Shown: one piece after another, positions 2,699-64,000 of the stretch | Numbering within the stretch: the stretch's first letter is position 1 | How the letters are laid out: each line of letters begins with the position of its first letter | Source: Fluviicola chungangensis | GTDB taxonomy: Bacteria > Bacteroidota > Bacteroidia > Flavobacteriales_D > Crocinitomicaceae | Reading direction: 5' to 3' | DNA: 64,000 nucleotides | Assembly: GCF_007558725.1 (NCBI RefSeq) | Contig: NZ_VLPL01000002.1 | Location: 248,001 to 312,000, forward strand | Notes under the pieces: model-generated | What the model was told of the DNA's origin: nothing | The model's input: the letters and a program-made list of their open reading frames with translations, nothing else | The model's database searches: none | Made by a program: the position numbers and the translations under genes

Positions 2699-4294
2699 AT
2701 GAACGAAGAATTTGACGTCACCATCATCGGTTCGGGAGTAAGTGGTTTACTTTCCGCAGCATTGCTGTCCAGATCGGGAATGAAAGTCCTTGTATTGGAA
2801 AAACACTACCTGATAGGCGGATACCTGCAAGGATTCGAGCGGAAGGATTTTGTGTTTGACACAGCGATACACTGGCTGAATCAATACAATGAAAAAGGAA
2901 CGGTAACGCGTGTTTTTAAAATGCTGGGGGAGGATTACCCGAAACCGCAGCTGATGGAGCGTATTCAGCGGCATATTTCTTCCAATCACGACTACCTGCT
3001 CACCAACAACCCCGATGAACTGAGAGACCGGTTGATTTTGGACTTTCCACATGAAAAAGCGGGAATTGAACGTTTTTTTAAAGTTGCCAGACGTATTGCG
3101 AAGGTTTCACTCCGGTTTCCGGAATTCTTCCAATCCATAGAAACCAAATCTCCGCTGGAAATCCCTTTTTTTCGTATGAAACAACTTGGGATCATTTATC
3201 CCTTGATTCCTTATGCTATCGGTGGTGATGATGTGAAAAAAGGATTGAGTAAATTTTTTAAGGATCCGGAACTGCAAGAGTTGTTTTGTACGGAACGCGA
3301 CCTGTTGTCTTGTATCTTTCCCATTGCCTGGGCGTATAATTCCGATTACCAAAATCCACCGATCGGTGGAAGTCAGGTGATTCCGGCATGGTTGGAAAAA
3401 CAGGTTCATCCGGATAACTGCGAGATTCGCTTAAGCTCGGAAGTGGTTGGTTTCGATTTTGAGAAGGAAGAAATCACGGCTGTTCGCTATAAAAACAGGG
3501 CGAAAGACTATACTGTAAAGACAAAATATGTGATTGCAGCATGTGATGTAGATTTTCTGTACCGGAAATTGGTCCCGCCGAATCTGGTCCCACCTAAATT
3601 TTTTGAAACACTCAATGATTCTGAAATGTACAGTTCTTCGGTGACGATATCCGTTGCCTTGGATTGCACGGCAGAAAGTTTGGGTTTCGGGCATGAACTG
3701 ACATTGGTTTGTGAAGGATCCAGTACGCGTGATGAGCACAGTTCGGGGGATCCTCATAAATCGGCTATTTCGGTTTTGGCCCCGACGGTTCGGGATAAAA
3801 CCCTCGCACCGGAAGGAATGGGAACGGTTACCTTGTATGTTCCTGCCTGGATGGATTACATGAACAATTGGCAGACTGAAACGAACGCAAAGGGAGATTT
3901 TGTTCGCACGGAAGCTTATAAGAAGCTGAAGGATGATTTTGCTCAAGTCATTTTTGAACGGGTAGAGGCCAAAATGTGTCCGGACTTGAGAAAACATATT
4001 TTGTTTTATGAAGTTGCCACACCGGTAACCTATCAGCGTTATACCGGAAATAAGAACGGCTCGATGATGGGAACAAGACCAGGAAGAAAGAATATGCAAA
4101 GCAAAATTGCACATTATCGGACTCCGGTGGAGAACCTGATTATCGGCGGTCAGTGGGCGGAATTGGGCGGCGGTGTACCCATTGCTGTAAAAACGGCATT
4201 CAATGCGTCCCTGATTATTTTGAAGAAATGGGACAAACCAAGATTCAAAAAATTACTTCATGCATACAAAACCGGTGCAAAACTCACTGCATGA
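2699..4294 (+). CDS. NAD(P)/FAD-dependent oxidoreductase, phytoene desaturase-like
   Basis: 531 aa. The N-terminal dinucleotide-binding motif IIGSGVSGLLSAALL (residues about 9-23) with VLEKHYLIGGY just after it is the CrtI/phytoene-desaturase and retinol-saturase type FAD site. The C-terminal FAD block NLIIGGQWAELGGGVPIAV (about 479-497) is also typical. The family oxidises or isomerises polyenes. In flexirubin-type clusters two such genes usually flank the MMPL-type transporter gene, as here. It probably acts on the aryl-polyene chain or the resorcinol ring; the exact reaction cannot be read from sequence. Start ATG at 2699. The second paralogue is at 8155. Confidence 0.9.
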   Translation: MNEEFDVTIIGSGVSGLLSAALLSRSGMKVLVLEKHYLIGGYLQGFERKDFVFDTAIHWLNQYNEKGTVTRVFKMLGEDYPKPQLMERIQRHISSNHDYLLTNNPDELRDRLILDFPHEKAGIERFFKVARRIAKVSLRFPEFFQSIETKSPLEIPFFRMKQLGIIYPLIPYAIGGDDVKKGLSKFFKDPELQELFCTERDLLSCIFPIAWAYNSDYQNPPIGGSQVIPAWLEKQVHPDNCEIRLSSEVVGFDFEKEEITAVRYKNRAKDYTVKTKYVIAACDVDFLYRKLVPPNLVPPKFFETLNDSEMYSSSVTISVALDCTAESLGFGHELTLVCEGSSTRDEHSSGDPHKSAISVLAPTVRDKTLAPEGMGTVTLYVPAWMDYMNNWQTETNAKGDFVRTEAYKKLKDDFAQVIFERVEAKMCPDLRKHILFYEVATPVTYQRYTGNKNGSMMGTRPGRKNMQSKIAHYRTPVENLIIGGQWAELGGGVPIAVKTAFNASLIILKKWDKPRFKKLLHAYKTGAKLTA

Positions 4295-61503: not shown

Positions 61504-61877
61504 TGCGTTCTCCTTTTTTAACAGGAAAATTCGGCTCTAACAGAGATGCCTTGAAATGACGCGCTGGTTCCGGATTATCGGGACCGGTAATCAAAACATA
61601 TTGGAGAAAACACCGTCGTCAGCCAATGTGACACTTTCCACCTAAAACCAATGCCCTTCTTCGAACAAAAAGTTCAAAATTAAACACTTTATATGCAGAA
61701 CTACTCTAAAAAAACGAAAGTGTGAGGGATATGATCTATTAAATTAGTTTTTAAAGTTAAAATTAGGATACATCTATAAAAATGTGCGTACTTTTGTGGC
61801 TTAAAAGCCGGAAAATAATGATTAGAAGGGTAGCATATTATTCCTTTCATGTATCTGAGTTAGTTTATCTTATACAG
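61504..61877. other. 374-nt intergenic region before squalene synthase gene
   Basis: Contains a weak GGTTCC/GGGACC hairpin near 61565, an 11-codon stretch ending KLNTLYAELL-stop (about 61677-61709) that repeats the tail of the decayed RHS fragment, and a promoter-like box at 61789-61796. No complete gene is seen. Confidence 0.5.
61789..61796 (+). promoter_or_regulatory. putative -7 box for squalene synthase/epoxidase operon
   Basis: TACTTTTG matches TAnnTTTG, 81 nt before the ATG at 61878, giving a leader of about 75 nt. Confidence 0.5.
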
Positions 61878-62924
61878 ATGAAGAAAGAATTTAAACAATT
61901 CAAACCTTCGGAGTATCGCTTGAAAGATTTATCTCAATCCACAGACGACTTAAGTTATTGCTATGAGGCGCTTAAGAAAGTTTCGCGTTCTTTTGCGGTT
62001 GTAATTCAGCAATTGCCGGAAGAACTGAAAAATCCGGTTTGTTTGTTTTACCTTATTTTAAGAGGACTTGATACCATTGAAGATGATATGAACATCGACA
62101 ACGCTGTCAAGAAGGAAATGCTCCTTAGCTTTGCTGACCGCATAAATGAAGAAGAATTTAATCTTGAAAATGTCGGAGATACCCAGGATTACCGGGATCT
62201 GATGCTTCATTTCGATAAAGTCATCCGCGAATACCAAAAACTTGGACCGCAATACAAAGATGTGATTACCGAGATCACCCGCGAAATGGCAATCGGGATG
62301 AACAAGTATGCGCATGAAACCGTTGAAAGTTACGAAGATTGGGACGATTACTGTTATTACGTTGCCGGATTGGTGGGAATCGGTTTGAGCAGGTTGTTTT
62401 TGGCCTCTGAATTAGAGACCAGCGTGAAGCTCTCCGATAAAAATCTCAGTAACGAAATGGGATTGTTTCTTCAAAAGACAAATATCATTCGTGATTTTGC
62501 AGAGGATCTGGAACAGGGACGTATTTTCTGGCCGGAGGAATCCTGGAAAAATAAAGCAAGAACATTAGAAGAATTGCAGGCAGATGAAAAAAGCGGGCTT
62601 GCCGCATTGAATGAGGTTGTACTCAATGCATTCGAACATGTGCCTGCCTGTCTTGAATTCCTGGAGTGCTTAACCAATCAGCAAGTTTTTCGTTTTTGTG
62701 CCATCCCGCAACTGATGGCTGTTGCAACATTGAAAGAACTGTATAATAATCCGCTGGTCCTGCATCAGAATGTGAAGATCAGAAAAGGAAAAACGGCTAA
62801 ATACTTTATTGCCATCCAGGATTATAACAGTACAAAGAAAGAATTTATCTCTGTTTTGGAGAGTTTAGAGAAAATAGATCGTACAGGTAAAATCAAGTCA
62901 ATATTAGCCAAAATTAAGAAATGA
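61878..62924 (+). CDS. squalene synthase, eukaryote-like
   Basis: 348 aa from ATG at 61878; the in-frame upstream ATG at 61782 lies before the predicted promoter and is rejected. It joins two farnesyl diphosphates to presqualene diphosphate and reduces this to squalene. Both Asp-rich Mg2+ motifs are present: D65-TIED-D70 and D206-FAED-D210. Long blocks match, from memory, animal and fungal squalene synthases: VSRSFAVVIQQLPEE, HYVAGLVGIGLSRLF-like (YYVAGLVGIGLSRLF), GLFLQKTNIIRDF, GRIFWPEE, FCAIPQLMAVATL and VKIRKGKTAK. These differ from HpnC/HpnD/CrtB of most bacteria. The C-terminal membrane anchor of eukaryotic forms is missing. Its TGA overlaps the next ATG (ATGA). Confidence 0.93.
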   Translation: MKKEFKQFKPSEYRLKDLSQSTDDLSYCYEALKKVSRSFAVVIQQLPEELKNPVCLFYLILRGLDTIEDDMNIDNAVKKEMLLSFADRINEEEFNLENVGDTQDYRDLMLHFDKVIREYQKLGPQYKDVITEITREMAIGMNKYAHETVESYEDWDDYCYYVAGLVGIGLSRLFLASELETSVKLSDKNLSNEMGLFLQKTNIIRDFAEDLEQGRIFWPEESWKNKARTLEELQADEKSGLAALNEVVLNAFEHVPACLEFLECLTNQQVFRFCAIPQLMAVATLKELYNNPLVLHQNVKIRKGKTAKYFIAIQDYNSTKKEFISVLESLEKIDRTGKIKSILAKIKK

Positions 62925-64000
62925 GCACAGGTGAATTTGATATTATAGTAATTGGTGCCGGAGTTGCAGGAGGAGTGTTTGCTGCCTCTCAACCCGCAGG
63001 CACACGTATCCTGGTCGTGGAGCGAGATCTTTCTGAACCGGACAGGATTATTGGAGAATTAATGCAGCCCAGAGGAATTCAGGCGTTGAATGAGCTGGAA
63101 CTCGGTCACTTACTGGAAGGGATTGATGCACAGGAAGTCAATGGTTATAACCTCATTAAAGGGAACGAACGTTTCATCATCAAATACGACGAAGTTCAAA
63201 AAGGAATCAAGGGAGTTGGTTTGAGAAACGGAAAATTCCTGACGAATATCCGGAAAGAACTTGAAAAAAGAGAGAACATCACCGTTGTTCAGGGGAACGT
63301 TACTCAAATCCTGCAGGAAAATAACGCCATCGTGGGTGTAAGTTATACGCAGGAAGACGGAACAAATGTGTCGCAATATGCAAAACTGACGATCGTTTGT
63401 GACGGGCCCATGTCCTTACTGCGTGACAAGTTGAGCAAGGTAAACAAAAAAGTTACTTCCTATTTCATGGGATTGGTCCTGAAAGACCTGGAATTGGAGT
63501 TCCCGTCTTACGGTCATATGATTGTTACCGGTGATTTTCCGATCCTGGTTTACCCGATCCATACCAATGCCTATCGGATCTTAATTGATTATCCGGGTGG
63601 AAAAGCTCCTAAAATGGGGAAAGAGTCTATCGAACGATTGAAAGAAAGTGTCGTAAAAGTACTGCCTCAAGAGATGATCGGTTCATTTTTAAAGGCAATG
63701 GATGAGGATGAGCTAAAAGTTATGCCGAACCATTCCATGAAGAACCAGGCATTTCGAATGAAAGGTGCAGTTCTTTTGGGCGATTCATTAAATATGAGAC
63801 ATCCGTTAACGGGTGGTGGAATGACAGCAACCTTTTCAGACATCCTTTGTCTGAACGGTGAATTGGCTGGAATTGATTTCCGGGATGAAACCAAATTGGA
63901 ATCTGCCGTTAATGAGTATTATAAGAACAGAGGGAAAGATGTTGAAACAATCAACATTTTGGCAAACGCTTTGTATGAGGTGTTTACAGATGGTGAATTA
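62921..64000 (+). CDS. squalene epoxidase (squalene monooxygenase), 3' end outside window
   Basis: 360 codons to the right edge, no stop. It uses FAD, NAD(P)H and O2 to make 2,3-oxidosqualene, the precursor of sterols. FAD motif IIVIGAGVAGG (8-18), then VERDLSEPDRIIGELMQP and a LEGIDAQEVNGY block like eukaryotic ERG1/SQLE, a CDGPMSLLRDKL segment, and the FAD/substrate motif LLGDSLNMRHPLTGGGMT with Asp288. The N-terminal anchor of eukaryotic forms is lacking, as in bacterial enzymes. ATG at 62921 overlaps the squalene synthase stop, so the two are coupled; an oxidosqualene cyclase is expected beyond the edge. Confidence 0.93.
   Translation, partial: MSTGEFDIIVIGAGVAGGVFAASQPAGTRILVVERDLSEPDRIIGELMQPRGIQALNELELGHLLEGIDAQEVNGYNLIKGNERFIIKYDEVQKGIKGVGLRNGKFLTNIRKELEKRENITVVQGNVTQILQENNAIVGVSYTQEDGTNVSQYAKLTIVCDGPMSLLRDKLSKVNKKVTSYFMGLVLKDLELEFPSYGHMIVTGDFPILVYPIHTNAYRILIDYPGGKAPKMGKESIERLKESVVKVLPQEMIGSFLKAMDEDELKVMPNHSMKNQAFRMKGAVLLGDSLNMRHPLTGGGMTATFSDILCLNGELAGIDFRDETKLESAVNEYYKNRGKDVETINILANALYEVFTDGEL

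Follow-up and report, generated by a model that had tools for sequence, protein, structure and literature searches.

The closest described system is that of Fluviicola taffensis. The available sections of a 2016 study (PMC4919349) report for this species a squalene epoxidase (SE, Fluta_3221), and an oxidosqualene cyclase (Osc, Fluta_3214) without further sterol genes downstream, and name cycloartenol as the sole product; the available part of a second study (PMC5101207) predicts the cyclase to be a cycloartenol synthase. The novelty implied in the initial annotation of the locus analysed here, in Fluviicola chungangensis, was overstated: as the available text of PMC4919349 documents, cycloartenol in a sister species dates back to 2016. 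The sterol trait itself was therefore already known, and the present analysis adds the make-up of the operon and two testable puzzles. The window, i.e., the whole stretch of 64,000 nucleotides (C12:248001-312000) within a genome of 4.27 Mb in 19 contigs, contained the beginning of a run of nine genes on one strand in the order SQS-SQLE-IDI2-HMGR-GYDIA-MVD-MVK-FPPS-OSC, seven of which were situated to the right of the pair in the window. No description of this architecture was found in the literature searched, which hardly covers subscription journals.

The same nine-gene operon, with protein identities of 82-96 % to that of F. chungangensis, was present in the genome G060, which is probably that of F. 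taffensis. The locus tags 3214 to 3221 of this species fit eight G060 genes, from OSC to SE. F. taffensis RW262 thus resembles our strain in the operon (G060) and in the residue type of the cyclase; it differs in being another species, and the available sections of PMC4919349 treat SE and Osc, not the SQS and mevalonate genes between them. Other Bacteroidota sterol clusters (L072, L073, L074, L083, L084, L108, L139) also have SQS and SQLE beside OSC, often together with a prenyl synthase, but their OSC runs opposite to SQS-SQLE and the mevalonate operon is located elsewhere (genus g10) or is adjacent and divergent (L083). The osc-smo pairs of Methylococcales share the adjacent cyclase and epoxidase, whereas no SQS or mevalonate gene was matched in the fetched flanks and all eight of their rows in the tree had V453. 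With the eukaryotic route (human SQS, SQLE and LSS) the locus has homologous enzymes and the order of steps in common; unlike that route, it is a single gene run, has cycloartenol-type residues, and no later tailoring enzymes were found. Fossil steranes are used as eukaryote markers, and their interpretation is touched by bacterial sterols. The operon make-up, the absent feeder enzyme and the exchanged last gene are leads worth pursuing.

Organization of the operon

Both reading frames of the initial annotation are real and overlap as ATGA (Table 1). The cyclase that had been expected to the right closes this densely packed run, seven genes on from the pair, and the proposed potential for sterol formation was also correct. 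The eight junctions measured -4, -1, -1, 0, 0, 3, 3 and 6 bases; beyond OSC, the first non-overlapping open reading frame of at least 100 aa was on the opposite strand. The sequence itself shows which genes are present, how they are arranged and how closely they are packed, as well as their conservation, their motifs and the residues that determine the product; the nine genes are presumably transcribed together.

Table 1 Features of the sterol locus. Window-equivalent coordinates (w.e.), used for genes past the window edge, are those of L003 + 57000
Feature	Position	Strand	Evidence or remark
Candidate promoter element TACTTTTG (TAnnTTTG)	61789..61796	+	29 bases before 61818
Squalene synthase (SQS), eukaryote type, 368 aa	61818..62924	+	Profile scores, structure match, motifs
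ATGA overlap, SQS stop/SQLE start	62921..62924	+	Reading frames
Squalene epoxidase (SQLE), 438 aa	62921..64000 in the window, on to w.e. 64237	+	PF08491, structure match
IDI-2	w.e. 64237-65256	+	Profile and structure match
HMGR (HMG-CoA reductase)	w.e. 65256-66566	+	
GYDIA GHMP kinase	w.e. 66567-67466	+	
MVD (diphosphomevalonate decarboxylase)	w.e. 67467-68522	+	
MVK (mevalonate-kinase-like protein)	w.e. 68526-69467	+	
Prenyl-diphosphate synthase (FPPS)	w.e. 69471-70457	+	
OSC (oxidosqualene cyclase)	w.e. 70464-72719	+	

The reductase, the kinases and the decarboxylase of the mevalonate pathway are all present in the operon. Some of the affiliations were made with scores under the NCBIfam cut-offs: IDI-2 scored 184.9 (cut-off 281.3) and aligned with solved type-2 isomerases at an E-value of 2e-31, the mevalonate kinase model reached 74.5 bits (cut-off 163.05), and for the FPPS gene none of the NCBIfam prenyl-synthase models attained its cut-off. 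The GYDIA kinase presumably acts as phosphomevalonate kinase, and the prenyl synthase is expected to form a C15 product. In the proposed route, HMG-CoA would be reduced to mevalonate by HMGR and mevalonate transformed in ATP-dependent steps to isopentenyl diphosphate, which would be isomerised and then condensed to farnesyl diphosphate. SQS would couple farnesyl diphosphate head-to-head to squalene, SQLE would epoxidise squalene in an O2-dependent reaction, and OSC would cyclise oxidosqualene to cycloartenol. We are highly confident that the operon converts HMG-CoA to a sterol, with cycloartenol as the probable end product. With every step between HMG-CoA and a tetracyclic sterol encoded in one operon, the bacterium would represent a compact system for studying bacterial sterol function as well as how sterol pathways get assembled and moved.

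Squalene synthase and squalene epoxidase

The start codon of SQS initially annotated at 61878 is probably internal. Twenty additional upstream codons stay in frame in relatives, as judged by eye on the upstream sequences, so that 61818 (MIRRVAYYSF...) is the more likely start. The eukaryotic type of this enzyme, in contrast to its start, was borne out: TIGR01559 gave 377 bits at a cut-off of 286.75, as compared with 60.5 for HpnD, 45 for cyanobacterial CrtB and 34.8 for HpnC. Among solved structures, human SQS (1ezf) was the top match with an E-value of 1e-77, whereas HpnC (4hd1) reached merely 3e-4. Both Asp-rich motifs were present as DTIED and RDFAED; in the alignment, DxxED was found in all 25 rows and RDxxED in 23 of 25 (absent in L077 and L138). 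An identity as HpnC, HpnD or CrtB was ruled out by the profile scores and the tree. The genome has a second SQS_PSY gene on contig C17, which was rejected as a second SQS since it lies inside a carotenoid cluster of the crtI-crtB-idi1 type; the crtI of this cluster was named by eye.

Upstream of SQS, the TAnnTTTG at 61789 is a candidate promoter element, which we take to be the Bacteroidota -7 motif. A TAnnTTTG was located 89-100 bases upstream of codon 61878 in nine of nine loci from the genus and a Taishania-type genome. Within 250 bases, any such motif occurred in 11 of 15 loci, which are related to each other; after mononucleotide shuffling, on average 2.4 and at most six of the 15 loci contained one. 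Neither sigma-70-like promoters (23 versus 23.7) nor terminators (12 versus 11.9) exceeded the shuffles.

SQLE was correctly recognised as a squalene epoxidase. PF08491 matched the part in the window with 9.7e-60 and the full-length protein with 2.7e-73 (246.9 bits), the FAD-binding domain PF01494 contributed 39.3 bits, and the top structure was human squalene monooxygenase (6c6n, E-value 7e-73). A single-protein scan of viral contigs revealed no viral copies. In the Flavobacteriales MAG SKYG25 (L135:161-2566), SQS and SQLE were located in one open reading frame of 839 aa, apparently a natural fusion.

Distribution and assembly of the operon

PF08491 matched 24 of the 240 family genomes, 15 of them with more than 240 bits and nine with at most 31 bits; the nine weak matches were left out as epoxidases on score alone. 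The profile also matched the controls E. coli and Caulobacter. Fourteen relatives had a strong match: ten presented the whole nine-gene order, in two the order was intact as far as the contig reached, and two, of the genus g10, had another arrangement. In an additional genome, G108, the contig broke off within IDI-2 and the operon was present from the remainder of that gene through OSC; its addition yields 16 genomes with a sterol operon or cluster. Within the genus, eight of 14 members had a strong match, our strain included. The genus member G049 had neither a PF08491 nor an MVD match. According to the available text of PMC5701471, 'Candidatus Fluviicola riflensis' is a facultative anaerobe; if G049 is this organism, its gene content would fit a loss of the O2-dependent pathway, as a single case.

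Two further arrangements bear on the assembly. In the genus g10 (G063, G064), the six genes IDI2-HMGR-GYDIA-MVD-MVK-FPPS form an operon alone, which is the exact middle of the nine-gene operon, and OSC, SQS-SQLE and another FPPS are located elsewhere. In a Chitinophagales MAG (L083), OSC, FPPS, SQLE and SQS stand beside a divergent IDI2-HMGR-GYDIA-MVD run, at which the locus ends. Most simply, the nine-gene operon would have arisen when a mevalonate operon became linked to a sterol cluster, with SQS-SQLE placed ahead of the mevalonate genes and OSC after them, in an order of events that is our presumption. As a side observation, the record L060 (CP034120.1), titled Glaciecola amylolytica THG-3.7, has a Fluviicola-type operon and seems to be mislabelled.

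Isoprenoid routes and the source of HMG-CoA

The dxr gene of the MEP pathway was found in 221 of the 240 family genomes, among them all 16 with a sterol operon or cluster, F. chungangensis included. HMGR was present in 54 of 240, again including these 16. PF08540, the profile of HMG-CoA synthase, matched nine of the 240 genomes and none of the 16. In the F. chungangensis genome, neither PF08540 nor PF01154 (whose scope within the family was this genome) had a match to indicate an HMG-CoA synthase. This combination, an MEP pathway plus a mevalonate branch for which no HMG-CoA synthase could be recognised, is open to direct testing. A candidate source of HMG-CoA is leucine, the breakdown of which through HMG-CoA may be possible because the genome has genes for an HMG-CoA lyase and a methylcrotonyl-CoA-carboxylase-like enzyme. 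The lyase had 1ydo as best PDB match (E-value 1e-39), and the lyase model was matched, under its cut-off, in all 26 tested genomes, with or without the operon. The carboxyltransferase matched in the PDB AccD1 (518 bits), a propionyl-CoA carboxylase (497) and a carboxyl transferase (496) before the methylcrotonyl-CoA carboxylases (484 and 479 bits); the next propionyl-CoA carboxylases had at most 272 bits. As reported in the available part of PMC5993337, Trypanosoma brucei channels leucine into sterols via HMG-CoA.

One alternative is a divergent or non-homologous HMG-CoA synthase, with a pathway that starts from acetyl-CoA as usual, and we give it an even chance. A PF08540 match is absent from 48 of the 54 HMGR-bearing family genomes, which counts against a special meaning of the gap, as do the lyase model matches in genomes with and without the operon and the two genomes named next. 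Two genomes, G009 (L166) and G113 (L167), had IDI-2 and HMGR and matches neither to dxr nor to PF08540. This points to a synthase missed by the models, in line with this alternative, or to a different supply, since these organisms need isoprenoids somehow. Among the six HMGR neighbours from these two genomes that were compared with Pfam, none was an HMG-CoA synthase. The alternative is weakened by the two profiles, which found nothing in F. chungangensis although they work in the family, where PF08540 and PF01154 both occur in one protein of 511 aa (G190). PF01154 matches even in E. coli, which to our knowledge has no HMG-CoA synthase.

It is also possible, albeit less probable, that the mevalonate genes of the operon serve isoprenoid synthesis in general and are not reserved for sterols. 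In the family members G066, G153, G190 and G206, mevalonate genes are present with no sterol genes next to them, and G009 and G113 combine HMGR with the lack of a dxr match. On the other hand, dxr accompanies the sterol genes in all 16 genomes, that of our strain included, MVD was found in just one of 14 tested relatives without a strong epoxidase match, and the carotenoid cluster of F. chungangensis has its own type-1 IPP isomerase. This cluster (L002, C17:110381-114103) contains crtB besides the isomerase; together with IDI-2 in the operon, this gives the genome IPP isomerases of both types, each in a separate isoprenoid cluster. The reading that unites a housekeeping MEP pathway, a private mevalonate branch in the sterol operon that lacks an HMG-CoA synthase and is fed by HMG-CoA from leucine, and an exchangeable terminal cyclase that switches the sterol between sister species is, as a whole, unlikely to hold, although the dxr and PF08540 counts, the leucine-related genes and the conflicting history of OSC are compatible with it. 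HMGR domains were also observed in open frames of ~770-790 aa (G106:C1:2375069, G041:C61:1440, G061:C5:202331 and others), possibly fusions.

Origin of the sterol genes

In the initial annotation, the eukaryotic type of SQS led to the proposal that the pathway had moved as a unit. A joint transfer of SQS and the other sterol genes out of a eukaryote appears rather unlikely. The SQS of F. chungangensis shares 46.0 % identity with the human enzyme, and in a tree of 27 rows the Bacteroidota and human SQS were split from the strain's own CrtB and the Corallococcus synthase with a support of 97/97. However, human SQS is closer to some Bacteroidota enzymes (54.7 % identity to that of L084) than to that of our strain, and it branched at an unresolved node among the Bacteroidota sequences as the only eukaryote in this tree; the eukaryotic rows per tree were one or two (human, and one further chain for the cyclase). 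Human enzymes were the top PDB matches for SQS, SQLE and OSC, which says little on the origin because the PDB holds few bacterial relatives. The pairwise distances of SQS, SQLE and OSC correlated with r 0.85-0.95 in 15 Bacteroidota loci and with r 0.70-0.91 in the ten loci left after thinning. This correlation agrees with a movement as a unit; inside the operon clade, OSC departs from it with a history that differs from that of the other eight genes.

The cyclase and its predicted product

OSC had human lanosterol synthase as top structure (E-value 6e-205). It scored 657.5 with TIGR01787, above the cut-off, 664.4 with TIGR03463 (osq_cycl), under the cut-off of 851, and 244.6 with the hopene cyclase model. 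The DCT motif was present in all 84 OSC rows, including that of F. chungangensis. A hopanoid route was rejected, the sole PF13243 cyclase gene of the genome being of the OSC type. The residues Y381, H449 and I453 (human numbering) represent the cycloartenol signature Y/H/I; in the bacteria tested, I453 coincides with cycloartenol and V453 with lanosterol (PMC4919349, section 14). The tailoring enzymes that had been expected nearby were not found: the genome had no match to a P450 (C-14 demethylase) and one to ERG4/ERG24 (C-14 reductase). The latter covered profile positions 349-431 of 432 with 33.6 bits (cut-off 27) in a protein of 229 aa, whose best NCBIfam model was an isoprenylcysteine methyltransferase with 42.5 bits, under the cut-off of 160. 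Though above the Pfam cut-off, this match was set aside as a sterol reductase, being restricted to the C-terminal part and methyltransferase-like. Since a P450 match was lacking and the ERG4/ERG24 match was methyltransferase-like, cycloartenol is the likely end product, and our strain would be expected to produce it, a plant-type sterol in a freshwater bacterium. Lanosterol, parkeol or a mixture as product is very improbable: close relatives have a cyclase with the lanosterol-type residue V453 at this place in the operon, but the cyclase of F. chungangensis has Y/H/I and groups with that of G060, taken as F. taffensis, which makes cycloartenol.

Probable exchange of the cyclase gene

The scan of named genomes comprised the best 80 of 117 relatives, to which its counts refer. 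Five of 14 cyclases of the operon clade had I453 and nine V453; the other Bacteroidota cyclases in the fetched loci all had I453 (15 of 15). The genomes G058 and G059 were united by the other eight operon proteins (100/100) and by DXR (100/98). In the OSC tree, G058 grouped with G000 as I type (96/97), and G059 with G052 and G111 as V type (96/96). In AU tests, for which the groups were picked after the trees had been seen, the pair G058 and G059 was rejected for OSC (p 8e-5) and the OSC groupings were rejected for the other eight proteins (p 9e-14 and 3e-9); all seven genus rows forced together on OSC were not rejected (p 0.138). On the DNA level, G052 and G048 shared 85-93 % identity in 300-base windows from SQS to most of FPPS versus 71 % inside OSC. 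In that same OSC window, before codon 453, the identity between G058 and G059 was 68 %. These data are best explained by recombination that replaced OSC entirely or in part. From residue 453 alone, a switch of the product between cycloartenol and lanosterol type is predicted for the sister species, Taishania pollutisoli CZZ-1 being one of the V453-type species, and the I453/V453 split represents a natural experiment on the product choice of the cyclase. The variation of the OSC slot was also visible among the individual loci, with L038/L061, L045/L068 and L041/L062 on one side and L003, L043/L060, L044, L046 and L040/L067 on the other.
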